Positions 2,979 through 51,711 of a DNA stretch of 64,000 nucleotides are shown piece after piece. The translations under genes and the position numbers were made by a program. The stretch lies in assembly GCA_022432975.1 (NCBI GenBank), contig CM039509.1, forward strand, positions 44,178,209-44,242,208. The letters are read 5' to 3'. Numbering within the stretch: position 1 is the stretch's first letter; the number at the start of each line of letters is the position of its first letter. The stretch is from Begonia masoniana (lineage: Eukaryota; Streptophyta; Magnoliopsida; Cucurbitales; Begoniaceae). The notes beneath the pieces were generated by a model. It had not been told where the DNA came from and searched no databases. It worked only from the letters and a program-made list of their open reading frames with translations.

Positions 2979-5090
2979 TGTAGCGCCCGGTTTAATCACA
3001 ATCTAATTATTTAATCAAATCGTGAGACATTATTTTTATGGAGGATTAATGACTAGGTTAATGTATGACTAAGGGAGGGCAGTATGGTAATCTGATAGTA
3101 ATAAAGGTTAACGCATTTAAGGGAAATGTTATTGAAGTAGCCGCCACTATTTTATTTCATTTCCTCTCCATTCTCAGCTCCTCAGCTTAGCAGAACGCGA
3201 TAAGAGACCCCCTTCGACTTTCTCCAGCGATTTCCTCCGAACTTGGTGAGTTTTGCTTCTATTTCTTGCTACATTGTATCTATCGTTGGTAGGAGGGATG
3301 ATAAATGAGGTTTTGAGAAGGCGGTAAGCGAGTGGTGGTTTTGGTTTAAGTTGAAATCGGGAATATACAATGACTAGAGTTTCCAAAACAGTTTCCCTTA
3401 GATTTCTAGTGGTTTAGAATGAAGATTAGAGGAAATTTAATGTATGCTCTGTCTATGGTTTTAGGTTCGAGTAATACCTGAAGTAGCTTGCAACCAAGTT
3501 TTTCCAGGAGACTAGGTAAGTAGAGTTTGCATGTGCCTTCGGGCCTACATCACAAAACAGTAGGATTTGTGTATGCATGAATGTATGTTTCTTTTCAGTC
3601 GCCATGCATCATATTTTGAAGGAAAACGAAAATGAATTTACATGAAGTAGCATGGTGAGACGTGAACAGATTGCAACAGTATACTTTTAAGGGAATTAAT
3701 CCGCCCCTTAATCGAACATATGGATACATACCTTGGGAAAATTTATCCATCTCCCATTCTATCAGGGATCAAATCAGCTGTTAAGGGAACTAATCCGCCC
3801 CTTAATTGAATATATGGATACATACCTTGGGAAAACTGATCCATCTCCCATTGTATCAGGGATCATCAGACCAGTGAACGAATGCAACATAACTGAGGAA
3901 TGAAAGTAGAAACTGCATATTTAGGATTTACATTTCAGTACATATTTCATTCCTTGCTTTGCTTACTTAGCATTAGGCTAATAGATGAGTTTTGTGATGT
4001 AGGTGAAGAGGTTACTGCAGGTGAATTTCCTGTGTGCACAGATGAGTAGATGTGGTTGGAGGGGTACATTCATGCTCCGTTCTGGTAAACTGATGAGGCG
4101 GGTTAACTGATGTCAGCAGTTGTGATGGTCTAGTTGATAATGATTCAATCTGAGTACATTGAGTTTTCATGACAGTAGTGGTTGCAACCTTTTGAATTAG
4201 TTTTGAGAATTCCTGACATTAGTGTTCTGTTGGATTTTAAAATGCTGTTTTTACTGAATTTGAGTAATGCAATGATTTAAATTGTCTCTGAATGGTTTTT
4301 GGTAAAATGCTTAAGTCCTTCTGATAGTCGGAACTTTCTCGGTTTACAGTAAAGTTTACTGCCATGTTGTTTAGTCCATCGGCAGGAGTCGAGTAATTTA
4401 CCTATCGGATAATGTAGAGCTCTTAAGCTACCGGTAGTTATTCTCTATCGGTAGATGTTTTAAGGAGTCATGTGAGGTGCACGTGTCCACCGGTAGATAT
4501 TCTCTATCGGTAGATGTTTTAAGGAGTCATGTGAGGTGCACGTGTCCACCGGTAGACATTCTCTATCGGTAGATGTTTTAAGGAGTCATGTGAGGTCCAC
4601 GTGTCCACCGGTAGATATTCTCTATCGGTAGATGTTTTAAATGACCACGTGAGAAGCACGTATCGGTAGATTCGAGGCGCAAGACTAGTCGTTTTGTGAA
4701 CGGTAGATGTTGGATAACTGAATTATCCAGCTGACGTCATCGGTAGAAGCCTCCTACTTCCTGTTTCTGCTTCTTCCGTTGACTTTGTCCATCGGCAGAT
4801 GCGTTTGACTTCTACGACCCCTCAAGTATTCCACGGTTTAAATTTTTATCTCCCATTTTCCTACTGTTTCTTAACACTCCCAACGATTATTTCAACAATG
4901 TTTATTTCACAGTTTTGTTTAACTCCATTGTTGTTCAAATGATTTCCGCTGCAAATTTTTAAATGTTTTGAGTTTTTATAAAAATGTTGAATTTTGACTG
5001 TCGAGTGAAGATTTAAATTAATCAAAAAATTTCTTAGTCATGTTCGAGCATTGAGTAGCGAACCGGGTTCAGAAAACTCAGGGCGTTACA
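2979..5090 (+). mobile_element. Solo LTR nested in LTR A
   Basis: A 2112-bp LTR with TGTAGCGCCCGG at the left, GGGCGTTACA at the right, and no internal region. It is flanked by GATAT (2974-2978) and GATGT (5091-5095), a 4/5 match to a 5-bp target duplication. It carries the shared layout: a candidate donor near 3246, a micro-exon 3475-3515 flanked by TTAG and GTAAGT, an acceptor GATGTAG|GTGA at 4001-4002, and a CGGTAGATG/CGTGTCCACCGGTAG array at 4380-4800. Intron 2 holds a direct repeat of about 94 bp (starts 3687 and 3781). Related LTRs lie at 21151-22762 and 62170-64000. Confidence 0.85.
4380..4800. repeat. CGGTAGATG tandem array in the solo LTR
   Basis: Tandem units of about 58-60 bp, each holding ttctctatcggtagatgttttaagg-like and cacgtgtccaccggtag-like segments, with CACGTG (G-box) cores in at least four units. 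The last unit (near 4733) contains gctgacgtcatcggtag. It occupies the same 3' slot as the arrays in the other LTRs. Confidence 0.75.
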
Positions 5091-5510
5091 GATGTGATGA
5101 CGTCATCGGCAGGTAAAGGCAGTAAACGTAATCAGCAGAAGGTGATGACGTCAGCCGGAAGATAGATGACGTCACCGAAAGATGAAGGCAGCAGATGAAA
5201 TCAGCAGGTGTGATGACGTCATCGGAAGATGTGGTGACATCATCGGCAGATACAAATAGTAAACGTAATCGGCCGAAGGTGATGACGTCAGCCGGGAGAT
5301 GGATGACGTCACCAGAAGATGCAAACAATAAACAGAATCGGCAGGAGCAAACCTAAAACAGAATTACTATTTGGCAGTAGATGCAGATACGACAAAAGAT
5401 GAACAGTGATATCCGGTGGATGTGAACTACAAACAGAATTGAGTTCACCGGTGGATGTAATAAGACAAAATAGGTGACGTCAGACGGTAGATGTAGGAAA
5501 AATTCCTACC
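5091..5510. repeat. TGACGTCA/GGAAGATG array in LTR A, part 2
   Basis: Continuation of the array interrupted at 2978. Seven TGACGTCA or TGACGTCAnCGG cores are visible, near 5098, 5143, 5167, 5213, 5281, 5304 and 5474, with alternating gaagatg, ggcagat and ggtggatg spacers. The array at 8590-9050 in LTR B is nearly the same. Confidence 0.8.
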
Positions 5511-7277
5511 AGTAGATGTAATCGGAAGACATAGTTTTAAAGGGGAAAATTTACAACTTTTGACAGGAAAACATATAGACAGAGAGCTTAAAACAGAAGA
5601 CATAAACGTCTCAGATTCTCAAACCACTTCAAAACATGGTTCTTGAACGAAACAGAAAACATGATAGATATTTAAGGAAATTCACTCTACGTAAAAGCTC
5701 TAAAACCAGAGACCATCTGTGCATAGGCTAACAGAAAACCTTACAATCTACAGATTCGATGAAACAGACTGCATGGATAGTTCCAAAGCCAGAAGTCATC
5801 CATGCACAAACAAACTAACAGAAAATGTCCCCAAACAATTCCAGAAACATTCAGAATATTAATTTAACTGTCAAATACAGTGGTTTTAAACATTGACACA
5901 GAATCTATACATTGTTTTAAAATCTCAGAGACGGTACTGAACTTAGCATAAAATTACAGAGTTTCCCAAAACAGAAGTTTTCTAAAGAGTTTTTAACACA
6001 GAACCAAAATTTCAGAAAGCTTTACAGAAACCTCTGAACAGAAATCATGTCTGGCTGCAGGATCCGACCCACATGAGCTCGAGCCACCAACACCTAATCA
6101 TCAGACTGAGGCACAAGGTCCTCATTTTCGGGTTCAGTACCTACATCAGAGAGTTCACCTATGAGTCTAAAACTCAGTAAGAACATAATAGATATGCAGT
6201 GATGCAAAATGCTATGCATTCGGTTTTCAAAAATACAGTGACAGTACAGAACATTACGTTTCAGTGGCAGAGGGGTATAAGTGGGGCTTATAGGGGAACT
6301 GACAAACAGTGGGTGCACGATCAGGCACGGTGCACTATCAGGCACAAACAGTAATACAGAACAGAACAGAAACAGATCTGGGGGCCAGTCCCCGTCCCGC
6401 ACTTAACCAATACATTTCAGTCAGATTTTATCTTGTTTAGTTTCAAACAGTGTACAGAAAACATTTGCATGTCTTTCAGAGAAAACGTGTATGCATGAAC
6501 GGTGCTTGAACTTAAACAGGCAGGTAGCAGAAATAAGACAACAGGAAGTAAATCAAAGCTAGACATTTCAGAACATAACTCTAACTCCTCTACCCAGAAC
6601 AACCCGACGGAACAGAGAACCTAGTACCTCCGTGATGTAGGGCCTTAGGGGCCAACCTACAGATATGAACTTACCTGTTTGCTGCAATGTAGAATGCTCG
6701 AATGTCCCTGGAACGCTCGGATCTGTTGCTGCAATGTAGAGAAATTAAACAAGTTGCAAATGCTAACAAATAAATTAGAAGAATTTGTTCCAAACTCATT
6801 CAAATCCTTAGAAAACAAATCGGTGTGTTTTCATCCAAAAACAGTGAGTTTTACCAAAGTATCACAACCCTGAACTCCAACCAGAACTCACATTTTAACT
6901 TATCCAAAATGTTAGCCTTAACAGATGTTTACCTTAGCCGAAGGAAACAGGGAAGTGGAAGTCTTGGAGAGGTTGAAATCGCCAGGAAAGAAGAAGCAGA
7001 GAAGAAGCTAGGAAACCGAGAAAAGAAAGAATAAGGGTTTCACGTAGGAGGAATAACTTAGCTTATTCAACAAGTTGCCAGATGCCACTCAACCATTGGC
7101 TATCTCCCACCAACCTTAATTTCTCCCCGATTTACCCTTCCATGCATTTTAACTTAGTGTAATGCTTAGCTAAACATTAGTTTGGTTTTCCAACAAAACA
7201 CATATATTGCATTTATATTAAATTAATCCCGAGAAATGGTTCGGGAAAAATTACATACAAAAAGGCCGGCTGTTACA

Positions 7278-8187: not shown

Positions 8188-8331
8188 TTCTAATAAACCC
8201 TATAAACAGAATAACCTAACTTAATAACAGAACTTTTACAAAAATTTTAAACACTTACAGTTGGTGGAGCGATCTCACGTGGCGGGTTGCGCAGTCAGAC
8301 ATTTCACAGAATCGTTTTTAAAACCTTGTCT

Positions 8332-8346: not shown

Positions 8347-10623
8347 TATGGCAGCCCAAAATCGAACCCGATCAGGGTCTGGGATCGAAGCCATCACTCC
8401 GGGACAGATAACAGAAAACGGGGACTATATTTTTTTTGTGTACATTAAACTTTTAAAACATTTACAGAGGGTGAGAAAGTTCTCTGGATTCGAAATCAAA
8501 CGGGGAAAACCGTTAACAGAATCGGAACGCAAAATGGATGATAGAAGAAAAGCAGGAAGTGATGAAAACAAAAGTGAATAAACTAGCGGAAGGCGTTGAC
8601 GGAAGAAGCAGACATCGAGTGGAATCGGTGGATGTAAGCAGAAATGATACTGGAAGATTTAGGCAGATGACGTGGCCGGATGATGTGGATGACGTCATCG
8701 GAAGATGTATGCAGCAGATGGAATCGGAATGTGTGATGACGTCATCAGAAGATGTGATGACGTCATCGGTAGATACAGATAGTAAACGTAATCGGCAGAA
8801 GGTGATGACGTCAGCCGGAAGATGGATGACGTCACCGGAAGATGCAGGCAATAAACGGAATCGGCAGGAGCAAAACCTAAAATAGAATTACTGTTTGTCG
8901 GTAGATGTAGATACGACAAAAGATGAACAGTGATAACCGGTGGATGTGAACTACAAACAGAATTGAGTTCACCGGTGGATGTAATAAGACAAAATAGATG
9001 ACGTCAGACGGTAGATGTAGGCAAAATTTCTACCGGTAGATGTAATCGGAAGACATAGTTTTAAAGACAAAGTTTGACAGCTTTAACAGGAAGACTTACC
9101 AACAGAGAGCAAAAAAATGGAACAGAAAAACATGAAAGACTCAGATTCTCAAACCAATTCAAAACGTGGTTCTCGAGTACAACAGAAGGCATTAAAACTT
9201 CATACTTCAGAGACTGATTTAAAAAAAAAAAACATAACTTGAACACATGTTTAAAGGAACACGACAGGATTCTCAAGAAAACAGACTGCATGGATAACTC
9301 TAAAACCAGAAGTCATCCACCCACAAACTAACAGATAATACTCCAAACAATTTCAAAATATTCAGAACATGAATTCAACTGTCAAATACAGCAGTTTTTA
9401 AAACTTAGACGTCAAAATCTGTACATTATTTTAAAATCAGAGGATCGGTACAGAACCTAACATATATTTGCAGAATCTACCAAGAGAAGAGTTTTTACAG
9501 AATTTTTACAACACAACCAGAACTTCCAGAAGACTTTACAGATATAGACATTACAGAAAACTTAAACCACGGGTCAGAATTTGTCTGGCTGCAGCAACCA
9601 CACCCCCATGAGCTCGATCCACTAGCCACCTATTCATCAGACTGAGGCACGAAGTCCTCAGTTTCGGGTTCAGTACCTACATTGGGGAGTTCACCTATGA
9701 CTCTAAAACTCAGTAAGAACATAACAAATATGCAATGATGCAAATGCTGTGCATGCGGTTTTCAGAAATACAATGACAGTACAGAACATTACGTTTCAGT
9801 GGTAGAGGGGTATAAGTGGGGCTTATAGGGGAACTGGAAAGTGCACGACAGGCACAACAGAGATACAGAACAGAACAGAAACATATCTGGGGGCCAGTCC
9901 CCGTCCCATACTTAATCGGTACATTTCAGTCAGATTTTATCTTGCTTAACTTCAAAACCGTGGACAGAAAACAGTTTTGCATGAATTTTCAGAGAATCGT
10001 GTATGCATGTACATTTACAGTGCTTACAGTTGATACAGCAGAAACAAAAGATAAAACAATAGGAACCTAAACAGAAACCACAGAACTTAACTCTAACCCT
10101 TCTACCCGAAACCAGCCAACAGAATGTAAAACCTAGTACCTCCGAGATGTAGGGCCTTAAGGGCTAGCCTACGGATATGAACTTACCTGTTGCTGCAGAG
10201 TTGATAGTCCTGAACGTCTCGAAAATGCTCGAACCCTAGTAGAAAAACAGAAAGTAGCCGAGGAGGTCGAAGTAGCTTCGATGACTGAATATCGACTGTA
10301 AGAGAGAATGTCGAGAAGAGAATGGAGAGAGAGCAGAGAAGTGAAATGAAGAGGGTTTCACGCAGGAGGAAGAACTTAACTTCCTCAACAAGTTGCCATG
10401 TGTCAGCTATGCATTGGCTATCTCCTACCAACCATAATTTCTCCCCAATTTTCCATTCCATGCATTTTAAACTTAGTGTTTAGTTTAGTTACACATTGGT
10501 TTGGTTCTCCCCCACACTAAATGCTCCAACATTTTACAATGAAATTGTTATCGTAATTATGGCAATTTAAATCCATACAATAATTCAACAGATTATTACA
10601 CGGCCAAAATGTCGGGTGTTACA
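8347..10623 (-). mobile_element. 5' LTR of chromovirus B
   Basis: On the minus strand it starts TGTAACACCCGACATTTTGG at 10623 and ends near 8347 at a decayed terminus (plus tatggcagccc, expected tgtgacagccc). It is 2277 bp and clearly related to LTR A. Shared landmarks are a micro-exon 10187-10235 flanked by CTACTAG and GTAAGT, an acceptor TGTAG|GTAC at 9677-9678, and an array at 8590-9050. Its outer edge abuts endogenous caulimovirid sequence at 10624, so B probably inserted into that fragment. Confidence 0.8.
8590..9050. repeat. TGACGTCA/GGAAGATG array in LTR B
   Basis: TGACGTCA cores near 8688, 8736, 8757, 8803, 8826 and 8998 sit in degenerate units with cggaagatg, cggtagatac and ccggtggatg. 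Its spacing is very like 5091-5510 of LTR A, so the array was inherited with the LTR rather than acquired after insertion. Confidence 0.8.
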
Positions 10624-15984: not shown

Positions 15985-15997
15985 TGGTATCAGAGCC
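15985..15997 (+). other. Primer-binding site of element E (tRNA-iMet)
   Basis: TGGTATCAGAGCC, right after the inferred LTR end CTCTGTCA. It fixes element E on the plus strand. Confidence 0.8.
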
Positions 15998-16863: not shown

Positions 16864-19500
16864 TGTAATATCCGGCTTGTACGGGTTTTTGGATATATTA
16901 TATTATATTCGTATTTTATTATATAGTGGCATTTTTGGTAAATATGTCAAACAGGTCCGTTTCACAAAAAGAAACGTCATTACGATTCTATCGAATAATA
17001 AGAATTTTAATGAATTTACGGGAATTTTCAGAGATCAAACACGATATTCCGAGTAAATACACTTTTCGTAATGTAAAAGTCGTTCTCGTAAAATAGTAAA
17101 CGAGGTCCAAATTGCGAACGGACAGTTTTATTAAATCCCAGATAATAAGTTGGACGTATTAGTGAAGTATTGAGATTGGGTGAAACCGAATGGCTAGACG
17201 ATTAACGAACCGAAGGACGGAATCAATATAAAAATCAAAGAAGGGCAAACGGTAATTTGTAAAATCAATTTTATAAAATAACACAAATCCTCTTTCTCTT
17301 CACTTTTTCTTCTTCTCTTCCTGGCGTTCACGAACAGAGAGCAAACCCTCTCTCGGCCGCCGACGACTTCCAACATTCCGACCTCCGTCCGACCTCCGTT
17401 CGTTCCGATTTCTTCACGGTTTCTTCTTCTCTCGCTACCCTAGGTATGCAGCTTCGGTCTCTGAGCATTTATTCTGAGTTTTCGGTTCGATTTAGGATTA
17501 GGGTTTCGATCGATTTTCGTTAAAAACGCGAATTAGGGCTCGTAATTAATAGGTTAGCCGTAATTATGTATATGTTGAACATGTTGGACGTTATTGGACG
17601 AAGAAAAGTCAATTTGCGGAAAAGTTATAAATCGGTTAAAATGTCGGGTTTTAGGAAAACTCGTAACTAGAGATTTGGATTATAAAGCTTTAATTAACGT
17701 TCGAAATGCTCTAAATAGCTAAGTGGAGAATTTAGGAGAATTCGTTAATTGAGGATTTTGTAATTTGGATGTTTAATAGCTTAATTCGGTTTTAACGGCA
17801 AATATCGTGTTTTTACCTTAGACACGCGACTCCAGTGACGAAGCTTGAGATCCAGCGCGCTCAAGGTAAGTTCTCGTGACTTGCTGACCGAAAGGTCTAC
17901 ACCATACCTCGTCGTCGTATCAAGGATCATTGAGGGTTCCTTGGTTTACGTTGTTTAGGTTGGGTAGTTAGGTTGGTTGTTTATAGGTTATGTTGTATTG
18001 TCTTGTGATATGTATGCTGTTTGTTTACTTTTCCGCTGATTAACTGTTCATGCATCACGTATTTCAAATGTCATAGAAAATGGATTTCCGCACGTGTTTT
18101 AAGGAAAGAAATGAACCTCTGTAATTAATGTACGTAATCTGTATCTGTATCTGTATCTGGTTACGCGAGGTGGGGCTCAGGCATGGCTGTAGGGTTGTGA
18201 GCATGTACCCCCCTCCTCTAAATCGAAAGTGGTCTAGTCCGACCGCGGGATGTATCCTTTTCATTTAGAGGGCTGATATCTCGGTAACAATCTGTCTGTG
18301 ACGTAATAAAAAGAATGAAAATGTATCTGAATATGAATCTGTAATCTGCACGTTTTATGAATGGCATACGCACGCATGCATCTGCATTTACGTAGCTTAC
18401 TGAGATTTCAATATCTCATATGTGTCTGTATGGTGTAGGTGACGTTATAGGTTACGTTGACCCTGGTGAGGATGATATTCCTCCTCCTGACGTAGGAGCA
18501 GCTGATGGATGATGGCCGTGGGAGTGCGCTGAGCAGTCGAGGCGCGTTTTGACCGTGGGGGATGTACGTAAAGGTTTTGGGGGTTTTTGAGACATTTTAG
18601 ATTGATGATAAACTGTATAGACCTATTAGGTGCTTGGATCTGGATAGGGGTTAGATAACGTTTTGGTAATTGCATGTTAAAACGCTTTGGTATAAACAGT
18701 TTTGATAAACGTTATGAAATGTTTGGTTTAACTGTTTAAGTTAAATGAAAACGTTATGAAATGTTGTTTGTAGGTTGTTACGGATAGCTCGGTTTTTTCG
18801 CGTATCCCATGCAGGTGACTCGTAAGCCGTGCAAGAGGAAGAGCTTGTAAAAGGGTTGTCTCTGGAATTCGGCTTCCAGAGAGATGAAAGTTGAAATTTG
18901 AATAGCGGTGTGGTGAATTAGAGTGAAGTAATTTAGAATGTTGACTCTCTGGAATTCAGATTCCACGCGAGGAATGATGTGTTTGTGAAGCGTTGAAGTG
19001 TTTTGGAGCGTTTGAAGGAGGGGAGCGATGCATGTGTGCAGCGATCGATCTCTGCTGCAGAGCAGAGATCGATCGCTGCTTGCTTACAAAGCATGCAGCG
19101 CTGATCTCTGCTCTGCAGCAGAGATCGATCGCTGCTCTCGTTGAAGCAATGCAGCGATCGATCTCTGCTGCAGAGCAGAGATCGATCGCTTGCCTCGGCG
19201 CAGCGATGCCGCGACACGTCGTGCACTGGTCGCGCGTAATTTGGGGGCTGGACCAGTTTTGCCCTCCTTTTCTTCGGCGTGGTTTAAACGTTTTTATTAA
19301 CTGTTTTTAAGTTTTATAATTGTTTAGTTATGTTTTAATGATTCAAGGTTCGATTTCAATTCCGTTTTCAGTTCCGATTTCAACCTCAGTTTTAGATTAC
19401 ACAGTAAGTTTAATTTAAAGAATAGAAAAGTAAAAAGTATAAAATGAAAAATTTGTAAGGGTAAATGGGTCCGGAATTGAGGTCGTTACCATTGCATTGG
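16864..19500 (+). mobile_element. Solo LTR C with perfect target duplication
   Basis: A 2637-bp LTR, TGTAATATCC...GGTCGTTACC, flanked by ATTGC at 16859-16863 and 19501-19505, an exact 5-bp target duplication. The right terminus is CC instead of the usual CA. Promoter side: tataaaa at 17226-17232. Candidate splice layout: donor near 17444 (TAG|GTATGC), micro-exon 17822-17865 flanked by CCTTAG and GTAAGT, branch-like CTTACTGAG at 18396-18404, acceptor GTGTAG|GTGA at 18437-18438. A hairpin array occupies the 3' slot (19025-19206). No internal region remains, so it is a product of LTR-LTR recombination. Confidence 0.85.
19025..19206. repeat. Three 42-bp hairpins with GATCGATCG
   Basis: Each unit is an inverted repeat with arms reading gcagcgatcgatctctgct and its complement (19 bp). 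The central four bases are GCAG in units 1 and 3 and CTGC in unit 2, as if the middle unit were inverted. Unit starts are near 19036, 19096 and 19151, with short unrelated spacers. Unit 2 has an imperfect left arm (gcagcgctgatctc). Confidence 0.9.
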
Positions 19501-28089: not shown

Positions 28090-28470
28090 CCGGTCGCTAG
28101 ACGACAAAACACACTTTACATCTTCCGGTCGCTAATCGACAAACACATTTTACATCTTCCGGTCGCTAATCGACAAAACACATTTTACATCTTCCGGTCG
28201 CTAATCGACAAAACACATTTTACATCTTCTGGTGACGTCATCCGGAAGACTAAACCATCAAACAACTACCCTTCGGCATCTGCCGATGACGTCAGCCGGA
28301 AGACTAAACCATCAAACAATTACCCTTCGGCATCTGCCGATGACGTCAGCCGGAAGACTAAACCATCAAACAATTATTCTTTCGGCATCTGCCGATGACG
28401 TCAGTCGGAAGACTAAACCATCAACAACTATTCTTTCGGCATCTGCCGATGACGTCAGCCGAAGACTACC
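28090..28470. repeat. Two-part tandem array in the 3' LTR of M
   Basis: Part one: four units of about 37 bp holding cttccggtcgctaatcgacaaaacacattttacat. Part two: five units of about 54 bp holding gatgacgtcagccggaagactaaaccatc. The equivalent in the other LTR is 35170-35560, with small unit differences. Confidence 0.9.
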
Positions 28471-29069
28471 CCTTCCAGCTTCCGTCTTACGGTAGAGAAC
28501 TCTAAATCATCAAATAACTCTTCCAACAGAAAGAAAACCCAACTCATTCAAAATGCATATAGCGGAAGACTTAAGCAACAGACCATTTATAAATCTATAT
28601 AATCATTCCCTGACTCAGTGAACCACTAGACAGTTCAAAGCTCAACGTTTAAAATAATCTCATCCTACTTAAACTACCATATTCTTTAACATACTGTAAC
28701 ATAAGAGTCTTAACCAGGGTCATAAATCGCCTCTCCAGTCCCGCACTGTCACCTTGAGCATCCTCCAGCAACCAGCCTTAAGCATCCTCCTTGAACATAA
28801 CATCCTCACCTGAACCTTCTTCACCTACACCATAAGGTTTAACTATAAGCCTAATGCTTAGTAAGGAATGCATGCTGTCAGATATACATGAGTACACAAT
28901 TTAAAGAGACATAAGTTCATAAACCATTCGTCATTCGTGTTCATCTTTATCTTTTACATAACATGTATTAAGGCAGGGAACGAGGGAGGAAGACAGGGGT
29001 ACATAGTCATTTGCCTATCGCGGCAGTCATACATAATCATTTGCCTATCGCGGCAACCATGATACATCA

Positions 29070-29245
29070 CTCGGCCTCCCCAGTGGGAAAATTCGCGAGC
29101 CATACATGTCATTACTCGGCCTCCACCAGTGGGAGATTTCGCGAGTCATACATATCATTACTCGGCCTCCACCAGTGGGAGATTTCGCGAGTCATACATA
29201 TCACTACTCGGCCTCCACCAGTGGGAGAATTCGCGAGTCGTACAT
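29070..29245. repeat. 43-bp tandem repeat in candidate intron 2 of the LTR
   Basis: Four copies of a unit with actcggcctccaccagtggg and agatttcgcgagtcatacat, repeated in the other LTR at 36160-36335. It sits between the candidate donor and acceptor of intron 2. Confidence 0.85.
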
Positions 29246-30209
29246 AGCGTAGTCTTTTCCCCGTTCTGCACTTAATAATGGTTACATTTACTTTTCATGT
29301 TCTCTACTTAATCATAAACGTGGGCATAATGCATAGACATGAGGTTCACAGAAAAAGTCATACCATAAGGACAAGTAGAACATCCTGTAACTTTACATTT
29401 ACTTACACAACTTCTTCATGTCGTGGAAATAACAATTCATAGTCAACAAGTTAACATTCAGTGATTCCTAATACCCTTGCAGTGTAGGGCCCTAGTGGCC
29501 GGAAATCTTAACACATTCACTTACCTGGATTCCTCAGCAATCCGAGCTTCTTTCCTTTAAACCTCTTCACCTAAAACATGTACATTACAGTAGTTAAAAC
29601 AAAGTCCTAATCATAAACCATCCTAGGATCTAATAGCTAAAGTCATTCCGATTACTCTGTTTGGCACACTGCAGTCTGAAATCCGAAACTAGGTGGACAG
29701 GTTTTACCATTGGTTAAATCCGAGTTGGTTACTTAAAATGTTCGGAATCGATTCAGGATGACATCTTTACTCTCAGATTTTGAAAAGTCTTAAGCTACTC
29801 GGCCACTGCTAGAAATATCCGAACTCAGTGCCGAGCTGAAAACAGAGCTCTATTTACTAATGAATGACTACATTGTCCATTTCATACCTCGGGTGTGGAT
29901 TTGCAGAGAAGAGCAAGCTCGAAACCAGCCGTCGGTAAGAGAAGTTCTGGTAGCCGAGAGCAAAAACTTGGGAAAGAAGGAATCGCCGAGAGGAAATGTC
30001 GGCTACAGTGGTAGTAAATGAGGTTTAAGGTTTTCATTTCCTATTTATACTTAATCCATCAATTCTAATTACAAAACTGCCACCTAACCTAGTTTTAATC
30101 AACTTGTAATAAATTTGTCTTAACATTAAATTTAAATCATAACGGTTAAATAAGAGGGTGACAATGAAAATGGTCAGAAAATCACCTGGCTGAAATGTCG
30201 GGTGTTACA

Positions 30210-30250: not shown

Positions 30251-30735
30251 TCAAGCAAATAACTTAGGATATTTGTCCAACATCTCCTGCTGTCTTTCCC
30301 ATGTGGCTTCTTCGATGCCGTGATTTGTCCATAAAACTTTCACCAATGGAATCTCTTTGTTTCTCAGAGTCTTGACTGCATATTCCAGTATCTGTATCGG
30401 TTTCTCCTCATACTCCAGTGTCGGTTCTAAACCAATATCCGATGGCTGGATGACCTGCATCGGATCACGCACGCACTTTCTTAACATTGACACATGGAAG
30501 ACATCATGAACTTTATCCAATGATGGAGGCAGTTGCAGTCTGTAAGCTGTACTCCCGATTTTTGCCAGACAGGGAAGGGTCCAATAAATCTAGGATTAAG
30601 TTTTCCCTTCTTGCCAAATCTTAAGACTCCTTTAAATGGTGACACCTTTAAGAATACTTCATCTCCTACTAAAAACTCGAGTTCCCTTCTCCTTTGATCT
30701 GCATAACACTTCTGCCGGCTTTGTGCAGTCATCAT
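30251..30735 (-). pseudogene. Integrase C-terminus and chromodomain of M
   Basis: Minus strand, two frames (30735-30481, 30520-30251) with a frameshift near 30540. It holds the GPF(F)-like block (LNPRFIGPFPV), VFHVSMLRK, and a chromodomain whose core reads IQILEYAVKTLRNKEIPLVKVLW...EEATWE with three conserved aromatic positions. The C-terminus is DKYPKLFA and a stop. A chromodomain of this form after IN marks the Tekay/Del group of chromoviruses (family knowledge). Confidence 0.85.
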
Positions 30736-34562: not shown

Positions 34563-34708
34563 CTTGGGATTCCTAGACAATTCATTACAGGCATAACTTA
34601 ACTTAATGACATACATGAAATCATAAACACTTACAGTTGCTGAGGTGTGTTCAAGTGACAGTCAGTGCTGGGAGGCAGTCTGCAGAATCGGTTTTAGAAC
34701 CTGGTTTT

Positions 34709-35169: not shown

Positions 35170-35560
35170 AAATATCATCCGGTCGCTAGACGACAAAACA
35201 CACTTTACATCTTCCGGTCGCTAATCGACAAACACATTTTACATCTTCCGGTCGCTAATCGACAAAACACATTTACATCTTCCGGTCCCTAATCGACAAA
35301 CACATTTTACATCTTCCGGTGACGTCATCCGGAAGACTAAACCATCAAACAACTACCCTTCGGCATCTGCCGATGACGTCAGCCGGAAGACTAAACCATC
35401 AAACAATTACCCTTCGGCATCTGCCGATGACGTCAGCCGGAAGACTAAACCATCAAACAATTATTCTTTCGGCATCTGCCGATGACGTCAGTCGGAAGAC
35501 TAAACCATCAACAACTATTCTTTCGGCATCTGCCGATGACGTCAGCCGGAAGACTACCCC
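35170..35560. repeat. Two-part tandem array in the 5' LTR of M
   Basis: Same structure as 28090-28470: cttccggtcgctaatcgacaaaa units followed by five TGACGTCA units with ccggaagactaaacc. It differs from its partner by one lost unit segment near 35270. Confidence 0.9.
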
Positions 35561-36159
35561 TTCCAGCTTCCGTCTTACGGTAGAGAACTCTAAATCATCA
35601 AATAACTCTTTCCAACAGAAAGAAAACCCAACTCATTCAAAATGCATATAGCGGAAGACTTAAGCAACAGACCATTTATAAATCTATATAATCATTCCCT
35701 GACTCAGTGAACCACTAGACAGTTTCAAAGCTCAACGTTTTAAAATAATCTCATCCTACTTAAACTACCATATTCTTTAACATACTGTAACATAAGAGTC
35801 TTAACCAGGGGTCATAAATCGCCTCTCCAGTCCCGCACTGTCACCTTGAGCATCCTCCAGCAACCAGCCTTAAGCATCCTCCTTGAACATAACATCCTCA
35901 CCTGAACCTTCTTCACCTACACCATAAGGTTTAACTATAAGCCTAATGCTTAGTAAGGAATGCATGCTGTCAGATATACATGAGTACACAATTTAAAGAG
36001 ACATAAGTTCATAAACCATTCGTCATTCGTGTTCATCTTTATCTTTTACATAACATGTATTAAGGCAGGGAACGAGGGAGGAAGACAGGGGTACATAGTC
36101 ATTTGCCTATCGCGGCAGTCATACATAATCATTTGCCTATCGCGGCAACCATGATACAT

Positions 36160-36335
36160 CACTCGGCCTCCCCAGTGGGAAAATTCGCGAGCCATACATG
36201 TCATTACTCGGCCTCCACCAGTGGGAGATTTCGCGAGTCATACATATCATTACTCGACCTCCACCAGTGGGAGATTTCGCGAGTCATACATATCACTACT
36301 CGGCCTCCACCAGTGGGAGAATTCGCGAGTCGTAC
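36160..36335. repeat. 43-bp tandem repeat in candidate intron 2 of the LTR
   Basis: Partner of 29070-29245, with four units and a few substitutions (for example ctcgacctcc in unit three). Confidence 0.85.
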
Positions 36336-37303
36336 ATAGCGTAGTCTTTTCCCCGTTCTGCACTTAATCATGGTTACATTTACTTTTCATGTTCTCTACT
36401 TAATCATAAACGTGGGCATAATGCATAGACACGAGGTTCACAGAAAAAGTCATACCATAAGGACAAGTAGAACATCCTGTAACTTTACATTTACTTACAC
36501 AACTTCTTCATGTCGTGGAAATAACAATTCATAGTCAACAAGTTAACATTTCAGTGATTTCCTAATACCCTTGCAGTGTAGGGCCCTAGTGGCCGGAAAT
36601 CTTAACACATTCACTTACCTGGATTCCTCAGCAATCCGAGCTTCTTTCCTTTAAACCTCTTCACCTAAAACATGTACATTACAGTAGTTAAAACAAAGTC
36701 CTAATCATAAACCATCCTAGGATCTAATAGCTAAAGTCATTCCGATTACTCTGTTTGGCACACTGCAGTCTGAAATCCGAAACTAGGTGGACAGGTTTTA
36801 CCATTGGTTAAATCCGAGTTGGTTACTTAAAATGTTCGGAATCGATTCAGGATGACATCTTTACTCTCAGATTTTGAAAAGTCTTAAGCTACTCGGCCAC
36901 TGCTAGAAATATCCGAACTCAGTGCCGAGCTGAAAACAGAGCTCTATTTACTAATGAATGACTACATTGTCCATTTCATACCTCGGGTGTGGATTTGCAG
37001 AGAAGAGCAAGCTCGAAACCAGCCGTCGGTAAGGGAAGTTCTGGTAGCCGAGAGCAAAAACTTGGGAAAGAAGGAATCGCCGAGAGGAAATGTCGGCTAC
37101 AGTGGTAGTAAATGAGGTTTAAGGTTTCCATTTCCTATTTATACTTAATCCATCAATTCTAATTACAAAACTGCCACCTAACCTAGTTTTAATCAACTTG
37201 TAATAAATTTGTCTTAACATTAAATTTAAATCATAACGGTTAAATAAGAGGGTGACAATGAAAATGGTCAGAAAATCACCTGGCCGAAATGTCGGGTGTT
37301 ACA

Positions 37304-42779: not shown

Positions 42780-45384
42780 TGTAACATCCGACAACTTCAA
42801 CCAGGTGACTTCCTAACTGAATTAACGGCCATGATTATTCAATCTTCACGGTTTAGAATTTTATGCCAAGCTTAATTAATTACATGTGGATTTAAACTAG
42901 GTTGAGTGGCAAAGTTGTAATAATAGAGGATTGAGACCAGTATTTAAAGAAAAAGGAAAGGATTCAAACCTCATTTAAACCACTGTAGCCGTCATCTCTT
43001 ACTCTTGGCGATTTCCCCTCCCGAGCTCTCGCTCTCTGTCAGCTGGAAATCCCTCTTCCGACGATCAGTTTCCTTGCTGCTTCTCGGCTACTTTGTGCTC
43101 GAGGTACGAGTTTGGCAATGTAGCTATCTTTTAGTCGTTAAGCTCTATTTTCTGCTATGTGTTGAAGTTCTGGGTTCTTCAATGGCCGAGTATTAGTAAG
43201 GGTATTTTAAAATCTGAAAGTGGTAACGTCATTCCGAATCGATTTTGGACATTAAACAACCAACCCTGAGTTATCACTAACCGAATCTGTCTGTTTTGGG
43301 TTTTGGATTTCAAACTGCACAGAGAACTATACTAAGGATTCGGGAGTGACTATAGCTATTAGATCCTAGGATGACTTGTGTTTAGAACTAATAGGACTTT
43401 GTATTAACTACTGCAATGTAAATGTTTTAGGTGAAGAAGTTTGAAGAGAAAGGAGCTCAAATTGCTAAGGAGACCAGGTAAGTAAATGTGTAGGTTTCTT
43501 GGTCATTAGGACCCTACATCAAAGGATGCTAGGTAGAAACTCATACGGTGATTAGAATTTTCCCTTATATCACTGTCTAATGTTTATGTCATTGATTAGC
43601 TCAATGGTAAGATTTCACGTCGAATGATGCTCTGTTCTGTAGCTTGATGATTTAAGAATTTTCATGTTCATGCATCATGAATGTTTTATGCATATGAAAA
43701 TGTTTTAAGAGTATGTTTTCGCATGAACAAGATAAGAATATAAAACTTATACAACGTGGATTAAGCGAGGGTTGGGGGCGGTTTGGCGTATGTCACTGTC
43801 CAAAAGAAGGACCATGATACGACCCGCAAGGGAACTATGTGCACTCTCACTGTCAAACCCCCTTTACCGGCACAAATCCTCTCTTAATCCACACAACGTA
43901 AACGAAGAATATGAACGATGAACATGAATGATGTATATGAATGATGATTATGAACAATGAATATGAACGATGAATATGAATGATGTATATGAATGATGAT
44001 TATGAACAATGAATATAAATGATGAACCAGGATGAAGACTTGAGTATGAGTATGAATAAGAAAAGATTCATGAGCTTTTATTTCCTCAAAATGAGCATTC
44101 ATGCATACTTATTAGTACTGCATTCCTTACTAAGAATTAGGCTTATAGTTTAAACCTTATGATGTAGGTGACGAGTTTTCAGGTGAGGATCTCAAAGTTA
44201 ATGAGGATGTGTAAGCTCGGTTGCTGGAAGGTGTTCAGGGAGCAAATCTGTGACTGGATGGCAAAAGAGACCCCTGGTTAATGTTTTTTTATGATTTTAG
44301 TTATGATAACGAATATGATAGTTTAAGTAGGATGAGTCTATTTCATAACATTGAGTCTTCTTTTAAAGATGTCTGTTGACCACTGAATCTGGAAATAATT
44401 TTAAGGAGCATTGGTTGGTCTGTTTGCTTAAGTCTTCCGCTATATGAATTCTGGGTGAGATACTGATTTTCATTAATATGAATGTTATGCCATTGAAGTC
44501 TTAAGTCAGTGAAGATTAAGCTATCGGATGATGAGAGTGTTATTTTGTCATCTAGTGATCGGTAGATGTAGTGCGTTTAAGCTATCGGATGACGAGAGTG
44601 CTATTTTGTCATCTAGTGATCGGTAGATGTAGTGCGTTTACGCTATCGGATGATGAGAATGCTATTTTGTCGTCTAGTGATCAACAGATGAGGTGTATTT
44701 AAGTTATCGGATGATGTAAGTGTTATTTCATCGCCCAGTGACCGGTAGATGCAGAGTGTTTAAGCCATCGGAAGATGTAAGTTTAATTTTGTCGTCTAGC
44801 TACCGGATGATATAAGGGTTATCTTGTCGTCTAGTGATCGGTATGTGTAGCGTATTGCTGTTGTTGAACGAGGATAATGAACCACGAGTGATGCACGTGC
44901 CCACCGGATGATATCTTCTATCTAGTGAAGTTTTAAAGAGTCACGTGTTAAGCACGTGCTCATCGGAAGATGTCCTCTATTAGGCGGTGATAAGTGAGTC
45001 ACGCGAGTTTTACGTGACGAATCGGATGATGAAATCTTTCTCTACTGGAAGATGTGAACTCCTTGCTTGTCATTTAGCGACCGGCAGGAGTAAGTGATTA
45101 AGTATAGAAATCTGTTGGGGTATGATCGGCAGATGCAAGTTTATTTCTCCATCGGTAGGTGCAGCTTAAGAGCTAAAGTCTTTTATCGGATGGAGTATTT
45201 TACCCTGCCCGCCGGCAGATGTATAATGTACTCCTCTGCCGAGCGATGCCTAATGTGTGATGTCTTAAGCTAAATTATGTTTCAGAAAAATATATATTAC
45301 CAAAAATGAGTAAAGTGTGAGTAATAAGAATTAAATGATTAAGAAAGTCATGGATTATGTGTCGATCCCTCTGGGGTTGTTACA
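42780..45384 (+). mobile_element. 5' LTR of chromovirus D
   Basis: 2605 bp, TGTAACATCCGACAAC...GGGTTGTTACA. TATA-like tatttaaag at 42941. Candidate splice layout: donor GAG|GTACG near 43104, acceptor TTTTAG|GTGA at 43430, micro-exon 43431-43477 (47 nt), donor CAG|GTAAGT at 43478, branch-like CTTACTAAG at 44126-44134, acceptor GATGTAG|GTGA at 44166-44167. Intron 2 holds an atgaatgatgattatgaac-type repeat (43906-44040). The array is at 44515-45240. It differs from the 3' LTR by a few percent in the first 300 bp, so D is older than M. Confidence 0.9.
44515..45240. repeat. GTCGTCTAGTGATCGGTAGATG array in LTR D
   Basis: About ten degenerate units of 60-70 bp with gctatcggatgatgagagtg, ttttgtcatctagtgatcgg and tagatgtag. 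G-box CACGTG-like acgtg motifs appear near 44898-44970. No intact TGACGTCA remains, unlike the arrays in A, B and M. Confidence 0.85.
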
Positions 45385-45388
45385 ATTA

Positions 45389-45400
45389 TGGTATCAGAGC
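45389..45400 (+). other. Primer-binding site of element D (tRNA-iMet)
   Basis: TGGTATCAGAGC, four bases (ATTA) after the LTR end. Confidence 0.9.
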
Positions 45401-45548
45401 GAAACCGGGTTCTAAAATTGATTCTGCAGACCACCACCCAGCACAGATTGCCATCTGAGTACACTCCAGCAACTGTAAGCATTTATGATTTCAGTAAATG
45501 TCATTAAGTTAAGATGTATCTATAATTATTTGTCTAGGACTCCCAAAA

Positions 45549-46573
45549 ATGGTTAGAGGTCAGCAGAGAGAGACCAATGAGGATAGCAATGCCATTGCTC
45601 AGTTGACAGAGTTGGTCATGCGCCAATCTCGCCAGATCGAACAGCTGATGACTGCTAGAGAGGAACAAGGCAACTCCAGTACTAATGCAACTCATGATCA
45701 TGGGGGTGAGCGTTTCCACCGGCTTCGACCCCCGGTATTTAATGGACATGTTTCAGATCCTATTTATACTGAGGAATGGGTTCGAAAGATAGAGGACATG
45801 TTTAAGTATGCAAAGGTTGACGAAGGAGATAAGGTCACGTATGCTGTCTTTCATTTGGAATTAGGTGTAAGGCATTAGTGGGATTCAATCCAGAACACTG
45901 CTAATGCAGGAGCTATGACCTGGGAAATGTTTAAGACTGCCTTCTTTGACAAGTACTTCAATAGGACTGTTCGGGCCAACAAGAAGAAGGAGTTCATGAA
46001 TCTGCGACAAAATGGCTCTGTGACGGATTACATATGCAAATTTGATGCTTTATCACGGTTTGCTCCCCGAATGATTGAGGATGATGAGGACAGGATTTAC
46101 CAATTTGTTCAAGGACTGAAGCCGAGTTTGTACATGAAAGTAAAGACTGCTTGGATACACAATGTACCTTATGGTGAAGTGACGGCTAAGGCCTTGGAGC
46201 TGGAAGAGGCTGAAATGACAGCATATGCACAGCTGAGCAGCCAAGAAAATTCATGAAGGAAACTCAGCCGCCACCACGTCAGAACAAAGGATGGCAGCCA
46301 CAACAGAACAGGGGACCACCACAACAACAATAAGGTATAAAGAGACCCTTCAATCCAAATGATGATCAGAGAAAAGGAAGGCGACCAATGGCCCCTCTAT
46401 GCCCCACCTGTCAGAAGAACCATCCCGGTGAATGCAAGTTACTTTCTGGCCGCTGTTTTAGATGTGACAAGGTTAGACATGTAGTCAGAGACTGCCCCAT
46501 GCCACCCGATCCAAACCGAGCAAGAGTAATGCCCCGAGTCTTTGCTATGATGGAAGACGAGGACACCATGTAG
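45549..46573 (+). pseudogene. gag: gag of chromovirus D, broken
   Basis: Starts at ATG 45549 ([13 protein letters not shown]). A TAG at 45876-45878 replaces the first Trp codon of the RHWW motif. The frame continues to about 46240, where an indel shifts it (former basic, Gln-rich region). The knuckle CFRCDKVRHVVRDC at about 46448-46490 keeps C-C-H-C spacing but has Arg in place of the usual Gly before His. Another stop lies at 46571-46573. It is closest to the gag of M. Confidence 0.9.
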
Positions 46574-49398: not shown

Positions 49399-49966
49399 GA
49401 TGAGGTCGGTGAAGCAAAACTCCTAGGTCCCGAGATTTTGCAACAGATGTCGGACAAGATTGCCACTATTAGGAAAAGAATGATAACAGCACAGAGCCGA
49501 CAGAAGAGTTATGCAGATCAGAGGAGAAGAGACCTTGAGTTTTCTGTTGGTGATGAAGTTTTCCTGAGGATTTCACCATTTAAAGGAGTTTTAAGATTTG
49601 GTAAGAAAGGAAAGTTAAACCCACGATTTATTGGACCCTTCCCCATCTTAGAAAGAATTGGCAGTACGGCTTATAGATTGCAATTGCCTCCATCATTGGA
49701 AAGGATTCATAATGTCTTTCATGTGTCAATGTTAAGAAAATGCATACGGGACCCTACACAAGTCATTAAACCAGTGGATTTTGAGATTAAGCCGACACTG
49801 GTGTATGAAGAAAAGTCGGTGCAGATATTGGAATCTGCAGTTAAGACTCTAAGGAATAAAGAGATTCCACTGGTGAAAGTTTTATGGATGAATCATGGTA
49901 TCGAGGAAGCCACATGAGAAAGACAGCAACACATGATGGACAAATATCCAGAACTCTTCGCTTGAT
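49399..49966 (+). pseudogene. Integrase C-terminus and chromodomain of D
   Basis: The frame reads QQMSDKIATIRKRM, FLRISPFKGVLRFGKKGKLNPRF, VFHVSMLRK and a chromodomain (VQILESAVKTLRNKEIPLVKVLW...EEAT). A TGA at 49915-49917 replaces the last chromodomain Trp. The C-terminus, DKYPELFA, ends at about 49966. It is the plus-strand counterpart of 30251-30735. Confidence 0.85.
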
Positions 49967-50006: not shown

Positions 50007-51711
50007 TGTAACACCCGACAACTTCAACCAGGTGACTTCCTAACTGAATTAACGGCCATGATTATTCAATCTTCACGGTTTAGAATTTTATGCCAAGCTT
50101 AATTAATTACATGTGGATTTAAACTAGGTTGAGTGGCAAAGTTGTAATAATGGAGGATTGAGACCAGTATTTAAAGAAAAAGGAAATGATTCAAACCTCA
50201 TTTAAACCACTGTAGCCGTCATCTCTTACTCTCGACGATTTCCCCTCTCGAGCTCTCGCTCTCTATCAGCTAAAAATCCCTCTTCCGACGATCGGTTTCC
50301 TTGCTGCTTCTCGGCTACTTTGTGCTCGAGGTACGAGTTTGGCAATGTAGCTATCTTTTAGTCGTTAAGCTCTATTTTTTGCTGTGTTGAAGTTCTGGGT
50401 TCTTCAATGGCCGAGTATTAGTAAGGGTATTTTAAAATATGAAAGTGGTAACGTCATTCCGAATCGATTTTGGACATTAAACAACCAACCCTGAGTTATC
50501 ACTAACCGAATCTGTCTGTTTTGGGTTTTGGATTTCAAACTGCACAGAGAACTATACTAAGGATTCGGGAGTGACTATAGCTATTAGATCCTAGGATGAC
50601 TTGTGTTTAGAACTAATAGGACTTTGTATTAACTACTGCAATGTAAATGTTTTAGGTGAAGAAGTTTGAAGAGAAAGGAGCGCAAATTGCTAAGGAGACC
50701 AGGTAAGTGAATGTGTAGGTTTCTCGGTCATTAGGACCCTACATCAAAGGATGCTAGGTAGAAACTCATACGGTGATTAGAATTTTCCCTTATGTCACTG
50801 TCTAATGTTTATGTCGTTGATTAGCTCAATGGTAAGATTTCACGTCGAATGATGCTCTGTTCTGTAGCTTGATGATTTAAGAATTTTCATGTTCATGCAT
50901 CATGAATGTTTTATGCATATGAAAATGTTTTAAGAGCATGTTTTTGCATGAACAAGATAAGAATATAAAACTTATACAACGTGGGTTAAGCGAGGGTTGG
51001 GGGCGGTTTGGCGTATGTCACTGTCCAAAAGAAGGACCATGATACAACCCACAAGGGAACTATGTGCACTCTCACTGTCAAACCCCCTTTACCGGCACAA
51101 ATCCTCCCTTAATCCACACAACGTAAACAAAGAATATTAACGATGAACATGAATGATGTATATGAATGATGATTATGAACAATGAATATGAACGATGAAT
51201 ATGAATGATGTATATGAATGATGATTATGAACAATGAATATGAATGATGAACCAGGATGAAGACTTGAGTATGAGTATGAATAAGAAAAGATTCATGAGC
51301 TTTTATTTCCTCAAAATGAGCATTCATGCATACTTATTAGTACTGCATTCCTTACTAAGCATTAGGCTTATAGTTTAAACCTTATGATGTAGGTGATGAG
51401 TTTTCAGGTGAGGATCTCAAAGTTAATGAGGATGTCTAAGCTCGGTTCCTGGAAGGTGTTCAGGGAGCAAATCTGTGACTGGATGGCAAAGGAGACCCTG
51501 GTTAATGTTTTTTTATGATTTTAGTTATGATAACGAATATGATAGTTTAAGTAGGATGAGTCTATTTCATAACATTGAGTCTTCTTTTAAAGATGTCTGT
51601 TGACCACTGAATCTGGAAATAATTTTAAGGAGCATTGGTTGGTCTGTTTGCTTAGTTTCGCTATAGGAGTTTGGGTGGGAGATACTGATATATTAATATG
51701 AAGGTTACGCC
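50007..51711 (+). mobile_element. 3' LTR of chromovirus D, cut by gap 2
   Basis: Begins TGTAACACCCGACAACTTC and follows the 5' LTR closely to about 51650, including the 47-nt micro-exon (50656-50702) and the intron 2 repeat (51130-51260). The last 60 bases before the gap suddenly differ from the 5' LTR by several indels. The remaining 900 bp, including the array, are absent. Confidence 0.9.

Follow-up and report, generated by a model that had tools for sequence, protein, structure and literature searches.

Candidate spliceosomal introns in the long terminal repeats of Tekay/Del-type chromoviruses from Begonia masoniana

Introduction

The long terminal repeats (LTRs) considered here lie in a stretch of 64,000 nucleotides from the plant Begonia masoniana (contig CM039509.1), which we refer to as the window. 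They belong to retrotransposons that we take to be members of the Tekay/Del clade of plant chromoviruses (Ty3-gypsy), a name that comes from an earlier note on this DNA. The sequence of these LTRs and of related copies elsewhere in the genome suggests, with a probability that we put at about 0.78, that true spliceosomal introns lie in the transcribed leader of the Tekay/Del-type chromovirus LTRs of this plant. The leader would consist of a pyrimidine-rich and mostly AUG-free exon 1, an intron 1, a micro-exon of most often 45 nt and an intron 2 with a near-perfect U1 site, and elements that bear gag seem to have one more short intron, which would end shortly before the gag ATG.

Spliced retrotransposon RNA is already known, and it is the location within the LTR that is unexpected. 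If the reading is correct, a repeat with tens of thousands of copies in the genome has introns in its own promoter repeats. Each copying of spliced RNA would be expected to erase such introns, and that they survive raises the question of how the element separates the RNA it translates from the RNA it replicates. LTRs that lack an intron at its exact borders would then be a genome-wide fossil record of the reverse transcription of spliced RNA, and solo LTRs would place a promoter, an exon and a donor beside host genes.

Architecture of the LTRs in the window

Six LTR types were compared in the window, D, M, A, B, C and the solo LTR S (2979-5090). Each has one AG^GTAAGT donor (the caret marks a splice border), a candidate micro-exon of 44-54 nt and an acceptor of the form CTTACT..TGTAG^GT. 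In element D, all of whose features lie on the forward strand, the 5' LTR occupies 42780-45384, ends in TG..CA, forms a direct repeat with 50007-51711 at 97% identity and has a primer binding site (PBS), TGGTATCAGAGC, at 45389. A TATA-like box, TATTTAA, is read directly at 42941-42947. Candidate exon 1 (42993-43103, its start chosen by eye) is pyrimidine-rich and AUG-free, and the AUG-free run that ends at donor 1 is 217 nt long. It is followed by candidate intron 1 (43104-43430, CGAG^GTACGA .. TTTTAG^GTGA), whose donor matches U1 at 6 of 9 positions and whose acceptor ranks third of 172 AG sites, and by the candidate micro-exon, read directly at 43431-43477, which is 47 nt long and holds no AUG. 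Candidate intron 2 (43478-44167, 690 nt, CAG^GTAAGT .. TGTAG^GT) has a donor that matches U1 at 9 of 9 positions, ranking first of 186 GT sites, and an acceptor that ranks first of 172 AG sites. Its last part, 44126-44167, carries the motif CTTACTAAG at 44126, with the branch-like CTTACT, a covarying hairpin (TAAG/CTTA) and the acceptor TGTAG at 44167^44168. Candidate exon 3 (44168-45474) would run to a third donor and is AUG-rich, with 48 AUGs up to the end of the LTR.

The other LTRs have a comparable order. The 3' LTR of D has its micro-exon at 50656-50702 (forward), a donor at 50703 and TGTAG^GT at 51392^51393. On the reverse strand, the 5' LTR of M has a 46-nt micro-exon at 36619-36664 with intron 2 at 36618-35917, its 3' LTR has the micro-exon at 29525-29570, and LTR A has a 54-nt micro-exon at 6675-6728 between intron 1 (6932-6729) and intron 2 (6674-6141). 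LTR B, also reverse, has its micro-exon at 10187-10235, with which exon 1 is continuous. On the forward strand, the micro-exon of S (51 nt) lies at 3465-3515 before an intron 2 at 3516-4002, and that of C (44 nt) at 17822-17865 before an intron 2 at 17866-18438. The positions that the earlier note had claimed in D, M, A, B and C were all confirmed on direct reading of the sequence. Its three-exon, two-intron layout is common to five of the types but not to B, which is without intron 1 and in which a pyrimidine-rich leader joins the micro-exon. The micro-exon itself, described there as 41-54 nt, is present in all six types with a range of 44-54 nt (that of S starts at 3465, not 3475), and the acceptor block is likewise kept in all six, although the branch-like motif CTTACTRAG is replaced in S by CTTACTTAG.

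The signals at the ends of intron 2 exceed chance expectation in several ways. The sequence AGGTAAGT is one of only three 8-mers common to all six types (shuffle mean 0.01) and occurs once per type, always at the donor (6/6). In all six LTRs this donor is the best of 156-196 GT sites in its match to U1, which is 9/9 in D, M, A and B and 8/9 in S and C, while the acceptor ranks between first and third of 89-172 AG sites; both scores are simple ones, devised after the sites were already known. Donor and acceptor block were found together in none of 2000 dinucleotide shuffles per LTR type. Intron 2 thus has the GT..AG borders and the U1-complementary donor of spliceosomal U2-type introns, whereas the donor of intron 1 reaches only 6/9. 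Local alignments between the LTR groups consist mainly of the acceptor block, the donor, the LTR start, the leader and arrays of GACGTCA/CACGTG repeats, and 5 of 17 group pairs gave no local alignment, including D, A, S and B each against C. Two decayed copies that had not been listed before, E (63929-62170) and F (22345-21250), still have the block, with a mutation in the donor of E and in the acceptor of F; E and C align locally only in an unrelated A-rich match.

Copies elsewhere in the genome

An out-of-sample test was made in the genome of B. masoniana (795 Mb), in which a pattern search for the acceptor block gave 16,974 + 16,619 matches (about 33,600), against 87 + 120 (207) for the backwards pattern that served as a control. 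From the places listed, 99 loci, all on a single contig, were sampled by the acceptor block alone. GGTAAGT was present 150-1000 nt upstream of the block in 72 of the 99 in sense orientation, compared with 3/99 in antisense and 2/99 when reversed. By batch the donor-bearing loci numbered 35/48, 30/40 and 7/11, and the last seven include locus L132, in which the donor assigned by position looks spurious and the true donor seems to be mutated. A donor with a CT(A/G)CA landmark within 60 nt was found in 66/99, the median intron 2 of these being 581 nt. The first 88 loci fall into 37 families (80% identity over 350 nt), 28 of which have a donor-bearing copy.

Base composition and AUG content change at the proposed borders. 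In the window, exon 1 of the six types (755 nt, with starts partly picked by eye) and the micro-exons (291 nt) together hold no AUG in 1046 nt. The expectation is 3.8 from dinucleotide shuffles (P = 0.01) and 11.4 from mononucleotide shuffles, a difference from which it follows that composition accounts for much of the absence. Intron 1 and intron 2 of the window LTRs have 22.8 and 41.2 AUGs per kb. The length of the AUG-free run that ends at donor 1 lies in the top 0.7% of positions in D, 0.2% in M and C, 2.8% in S and 11% in A; in B, where the run ends at donor 2, it lies in the top 12%. The GC fraction is 0.46-0.55 in exons against 0.36-0.41 in introns of five window LTRs; plant introns are in general AT-rich and exons GC-richer.

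In 34 distinct donor-bearing genomic copies, the last 50 nt before the donor have 3 AUGs per kb and a GC fraction of 0.53. The preceding 50-nt windows have 8-25 per kb and 0.30-0.44, the nearest of them 25 per kb and 0.30. Beyond +50, intron 2 has 28-68 AUGs per kb, with a GC fraction of 0.31-0.38 from +50 to +250, and the start of exon 3 has 26-28 per kb and 0.50-0.56. The best-scoring micro-exon is exactly 45 nt long in 14 of 30 genomic copies. Exon 1 is not always AUG-free outside the window, since of the 18 copies kept for this count (those with a clear leader, from 35) 11 are without ATG in the last 190 nt. A sharp pyrimidine step was present in just 25 of 65 loci, and a search for donor 1 guided by it gave a U1 match of at least 6 in 9/25, against 14% of control positions, which is a mild enrichment.

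A third candidate intron before gag

A further candidate intron was absent from the layout of the earlier note. In A, B, D and M (4/4 elements whose gag start was read), the PBS is followed by CAACT^GTAAG(T/C) and, 59-63 nt later, by a TAG^G acceptor, which stands 10-12 nt upstream of the gag ATG with no AUG between. In D it would occupy 45475-45537 of the forward strand (63 nt, CAACT^GTAAGC .. TTGTCTAG^G), 11 nt before the gag ATG at 45549. The counterparts, all on the reverse strand, are 34573-34634 in M (62 nt, gag ATG 34562), 2277-2336 in A (60 nt, gag ATG 2265) and 8200-8258 in B (59 nt, gag ATG 8187). A length of 59-63 nt is short for a plant intron. The TG..CA termini and the adjoining PBS TGGTATCAGAGC are present in both D and M, and A and B have the PBS variant TGGTATCAGAGAG; we take the PBS of these elements to be of the initiator methionine tRNA type.

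LTRs without intron 1

Three LTRs lack intron 1, namely B in the window and the genomic copies L028 and L084, both of which are among the 65 donor-bearing loci of the first 88. The pyrimidine fraction directly before the micro-exon is 0.84 in L028 and 0.70 in L084, and the third value, 0.66, belongs to L089. The last of these is a different chimera, in which the first 24 nt of the LTR are joined to the micro-exon via AGGTGA, and this join may be a simple deletion. Read by eye, the join in L028 (..CTCCATTAAAG^GTTTGAG..) matches the borders of intron 1 in L015 (..GTTAAAG^GTAACC .. ATTTAG^GTTTGTG), and that in L084 (..TTTTCTTCAGCAAAG^GTCCGAG.., its leader end being given also as ..TTCTTCAGCAAAG) matches L081 (..TTTTCTTCCGTGAAG^GTAATT).

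The joins were also examined by a breakpoint scan against seven relatives that bear intron 1 (L015, L034, L132, L081, L130, L019 and A), in which one end could lie up to 40 nt to either side of the donor and the other between 40 nt upstream and at most 30 nt downstream of the acceptor, with 5751 fits per comparison. No fit to L028 among the 5751 was better than that with intron 1 of L015 cut at its exact borders (a tie extends over a 5-nt slide), and the same cut in L034 gave the second best to L084; over all comparisons (3 intron-less LTRs x 7 relatives), the exact borders were within the best 2% in 10 of 21. The absence of intron 1 from B, L028 and L084 is real, and to judge from their sequence it is compatible with removal by splicing.

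Evidence against the leader introns

A number of results weigh against this interpretation. Exact loss of intron 1 in L028 and L084, as read by eye, was borne out by the scan in just one of the 21 comparisons, the only one in which the exact borders came out best; outside the ten already mentioned their rank fell to as low as 1906. The relatives nearest to L084 by score, L081 and L130, favour breakpoints 8-10 and 19-21 nt away, and in 10 automatic alignments the largest gap never lay at both splice borders. The relatives are too diverged for the breakpoints to be fixed, and with AGGT at both borders in most of them a deletion by short homology is possible. It was the outcome of the scan that lowered our confidence in the leader introns to the 0.78 given above. 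No copy without intron 2 was found in the window or in the fetched loci (0 junctions, with 44 micro-exon ends and 43 exon-3 starts), though these loci were chosen by the acceptor of intron 2 and the search would have missed such copies.

The signals of intron 1 are also weak, its donor matching U1 at 6/9 in all five LTRs that have it and acceptor 1 ranking 10/89 in A, 34/89 in B and 50/136 in C. When D and M are compared, the donor-1 border shows no more conservation than its flanks: its 20-nt identity is 0.55, and 67% of windows over the first 1700 nt do as well. For the other three borders, 9 to 28% of windows score at least as high. That conservation of the splice signals goes beyond chance, as had been proposed, is therefore upheld by the shuffles, the shared 8-mer and the U1 ranks but not by the D-M comparison, in which the borders are not uniformly above their flanks. 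With respect to composition, the first 50 nt of intron 2 in the 34 copies are intermediate (9 AUGs per kb, GC fraction 0.48), and its middle (+300 to +400) is as GC-rich as exon 3, at 0.50-0.52. For the third candidate intron, the PBS matches at 15985 and 11206 in the window lead into sequence without its layout, only 2 of 40 stretches fetched downstream of other copies had a PBS match, and one of these two, L115, which lies within an element, has the gag-side acceptor but no GTAAG donor.

The earlier suggestion that splicing removes an AUG-rich leader from the gag mRNA holds in part. The introns are AUG-rich and exon 1 and the micro-exon AUG-free in the window, but the sequence from exon 3 to the LTR end is still AUG-rich, with 186 AUGs in 6737 nt (27.6 per kb). 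A gag mRNA that kept exon 3 would therefore not be cleared, and clearance would need exon 3 to be skipped too. The AUGs would be cleared if the micro-exon donor were joined directly to the acceptor that stands 10-12 nt upstream of the gag ATG.

Proposed mechanism and alternative explanations

We propose that RNA from the 5' LTR promoter would be spliced in part only. The spliced RNA, in which the micro-exon may be joined to the gag-side acceptor, would go to translation, and the unspliced RNA would be the genome that is reverse transcribed, with both progeny LTRs regaining the introns in most new copies. Occasional copying of a partly spliced RNA would give LTRs without intron 1, such as B, L028 and L084. 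We infer the splicing itself, the removal of intron 1 by it, the use of spliced RNA for Gag and the two separate RNA pools. That the 5' leader is spliced is well supported at the level of sequence, by the out-of-sample copies, by the composition and AUG content of the micro-exon and by the compatibility of the intron-1-less LTRs with splicing, but the breakpoints of the latter are mostly not fixed to the borders. By the logic of reverse transcription the template has to be unspliced RNA, which fits the retention of introns in most sampled copies. A more speculative extension, which we consider rather doubtful, is that the LTR introns act as a sorter. Only RNA that retains intron 2, with its hairpins after the donor and before the acceptor, would be chosen as genome. 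Intron 1 would be dispensable and lost in some lineages, intron 2 would be kept as a packaging mark or a splicing shield, and the spliced AUG-free leader joined to the gag-side acceptor would make Gag.

Among the alternatives, the conserved blocks might be structures of the genomic RNA with roles in packaging, dimerisation or export, their likeness to splice sites being incidental, which we regard as improbable. Between CTTAC and TGTAG there is a hairpin with compensatory changes. Its covariation score of 0.389 is matched by none of 500 shuffles, which give 0.101, and by no slid placement (0.106 or less), and its percentage paired is also above all 500 shuffles. Stems of at least 5 bp occur in 63 of 67 distinct genomic blocks, some of them in another register, against about 38% of shuffled ones, and RNAalifold pairs CTTAC, which is the reverse complement of the donor GTAAG, with the GTAGG of the acceptor. 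A second hairpin follows the donor. In D it is read directly as GGTC/GACC and then CTACA at 43501-43518 (forward strand), 23 nt into intron 2; CTACA or CTGCA lies within 60 nt after the donor in 60 of 65 copies, and 57 of these 60 have a stem of at least 3 bp before it, commonly GGCC/GGCC but also GGTC/GACC or GACC/GGTC, as counted without a shuffled control. Set against this, neither the doubly changed pairs of the acceptor hairpin (2 vs 1.4) nor its pair types (3 vs 3.5) were above shuffles in the same test. Intron 2 overall is not unusually folded, sliding fold z-scores having a mean of +0.15 over 58 windows, on which ground a large folded packaging domain within it was rejected; the folded part of the LTR is exon 3, on both strands alike. 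Structure alone also leaves unexplained the U1-type donor, the change in composition and AUG content at the micro-exon and the missing intron 1. RNA structures can exist side by side with splicing, and a role for the two intron 2 hairpins in regulating splicing or in labelling unspliced RNA is conceivable.

Somewhat less probable again is that the acceptor block belongs to a short, conserved open reading frame (ORF), read from unspliced RNA or across the junctions and kept for its peptide. Downstream of the acceptor, frame G^GT stays open over at least 13 codons in 76/88 loci (52/88 for another frame). It has an acidic tail with a GED motif at an offset of 2 mod 3 in 54/55, an argument that rests on only four main length classes, and four window copies have a frame that is open through the acceptor block. 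The spacing on the intron side is, however, not bound to the frame (39, 23 and 21 of 83 in the three classes), the upstream frame hits a stop in D, E, F and C, and the nonsynonymous-to-synonymous ratios of 0.80 in exon 3 and 1.57 in the micro-exon show no clear purifying selection. Exon 1 is without an in-frame AUG in 15 of the 18 clear-leader copies, and the 72-aa spliced product of L018 had no homologue (no candidate with three shared 5-residue words). We treat the conserved frame as a minor rival or an extra role of exon 3. We think it very unlikely that the U1 small nuclear ribonucleoprotein binds GTAAGT without splicing and shields the leader from premature polyadenylation, as U1 protects at the major donor of human immunodeficiency virus 1. 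The donor is nearly perfect for U1, yet this would leave unexplained why an acceptor is conserved at a constant position, as well as the micro-exon and the intron-1-less copies, and a site present in both LTRs could not alone discriminate 5' from 3'. Least probable, and already hard to hold, is common descent of neutral sequence with a chance likeness to splice sites. All copies seemingly belong to one element group and the D-M borders do not stand out uniformly, but little else aligns between groups, sense outnumbers antisense 72 to 3, and the loss of splice sites in E, F and other decayed copies argues against it.

As an observation on exon 3 itself, its start in L002-L089 has an acidic peptide frame that often reads GEDDVPPP(D/E)(V/A) stop; it is retained from family to family, with changes in length that stay in frame, though the substitution ratios back it only weakly.

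Relation to known systems

In human T-cell leukaemia virus and bovine leukaemia virus, and in foamy viruses, the major splice donor lies in the R region of the LTR and the unspliced RNA is the genome. These systems differ from the present one in that their acceptors lie outside the LTR, which is not known to hold complete introns and a micro-exon. The literature search, which left most subscription papers outside its reach, returned no description of an LTR containing a complete intron. In that respect the earlier statement that no described element has this arrangement stands, except that splice donors have been predicted in the LTR of Diaspora. This soybean Ty3-gypsy element, related to Athila and Calypso, has a very long leader, and its predicted splice sites are donors in the LTR and two acceptors, placed on either side of the gag start (PMC1142308). 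Diaspora is the nearest known case, although it concerns one element and a prediction of medium confidence whose relevance was stated to be unknown, and the accessible text describes no acceptor within the LTR, micro-exon, family comparison or intron-less copies (PMC1142308). The same 2005 paper, in its accessible part, states that no intron upstream of gag was then known (PMC1142308), and a review describes plant LTR retrotransposons as generally intron-less, with Ogre and EVADE as exceptions in the sections available (PMC12786077).

Other elements offer partial likenesses, each given here from the accessible portion of its source. Ogre, of the Tat lineage, is a plant Ty3-gypsy element with an intron between gag-pro and pol that is removed from a subset of transcripts; unlike the introns proposed here, it lies in the coding region and not in the LTR, and the clade is different (PMC6317226). 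BARE1 of barley (Ty1-copia) has separate RNA pools for translation and replication and a spliced subgenomic gag RNA, and thus provides a precedent for the separate pools in the proposed mechanism (PMC3735527). EVADE (Ty1-copia) also makes a spliced subgenomic gag RNA, but it is protease sequence after gag that is removed and not the leader (PMC12786077). Spliced RNA has been seen for Tyran and Varan of sunflower (PMC7730604) and for gag RNAs of triticale (PMC7765848), and spliced and back-spliced reads for CRM of maize (PMC7010299), the available text of these three papers describing no intron wholly inside an LTR. Retrosat2 of rice, which belongs to the Tekay clade (PMC6317226), has a very long LTR with a predicted R of about nt 244-2065 and a long leader, and no LTR intron is described in the text available (PMC3485330). 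In ZAM-like, env-bearing Metaviridae of Drosophila a short exon upstream of gag is spliced, but to env and not to a leader or gag exon (PMC12992720). In sunflower, Tekay elements are missing from the expressed set as far as the accessible text goes, and such RNA may therefore be scarce in somatic tissue (PMC7730604).

Relatives of the elements were also sought outside plants. None was found in viral contigs by the PBS-intron pattern or by protein, and the one match there falls in protein-coding sequence that does not resemble an LTR, for which reason we regard it as accidental. Prokaryote genomes likewise gave no relatives of the elements.

Other features of the window

The ORF of M at 32415-34613 matches Retrotrans_gag, zf-CCHC, RVP_2 and RVT_1, corresponding to gag, aspartic protease and reverse transcriptase of the Ty3-gypsy type. 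A piece of M (30251-30589) matches Pfam Chromo, the domain expected C-terminal to the integrase in this clade, with an E value of 0.0018 and 18.6 bits, which is below the cut-off of 25.1, and beside it SH3_Tf2-1 is matched above its own cut-off; the D piece at 49399-49914 gave no Pfam Chromo match. The protein homologues listed for the window elements are nearly all plant sequences. A reverse transcriptase filed under Parablautia muri is 88% identical over 35% of the query (P0024 and P0114 search) and another match is filed under Salmonella enterica; these bacterial labels probably reflect plant DNA inside bacterial assemblies.

No known RNA family or ribozyme was matched at the LTR sites. Nine sub-threshold microRNA or signal recognition particle matches lie on or beside a long near-perfect palindrome at 19037-19190, except for one at 40749; the palindrome is present in 2.7 tandem copies and its fold z is about -10 in one window. 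Between 2430 and 10620 the insertions are nested, the solo LTR S lying within LTR A and element A within the gag of element B. Tandem arrays with TGACGTCA (29 in the window) are found at 28233-28468, 35310-35556, 5090-5344 and 8666-8867, and lie towards the 3' end of several LTRs, on the downstream side of the presumed promoter. Within intron 2, both M LTRs have a four-copy tandem array of 46 bp (36157-36338 and 29065-29246), and CATGCAT, presumably an RY-type motif, occurs inside intron 2 of all six window types, for example at 43669-43675.

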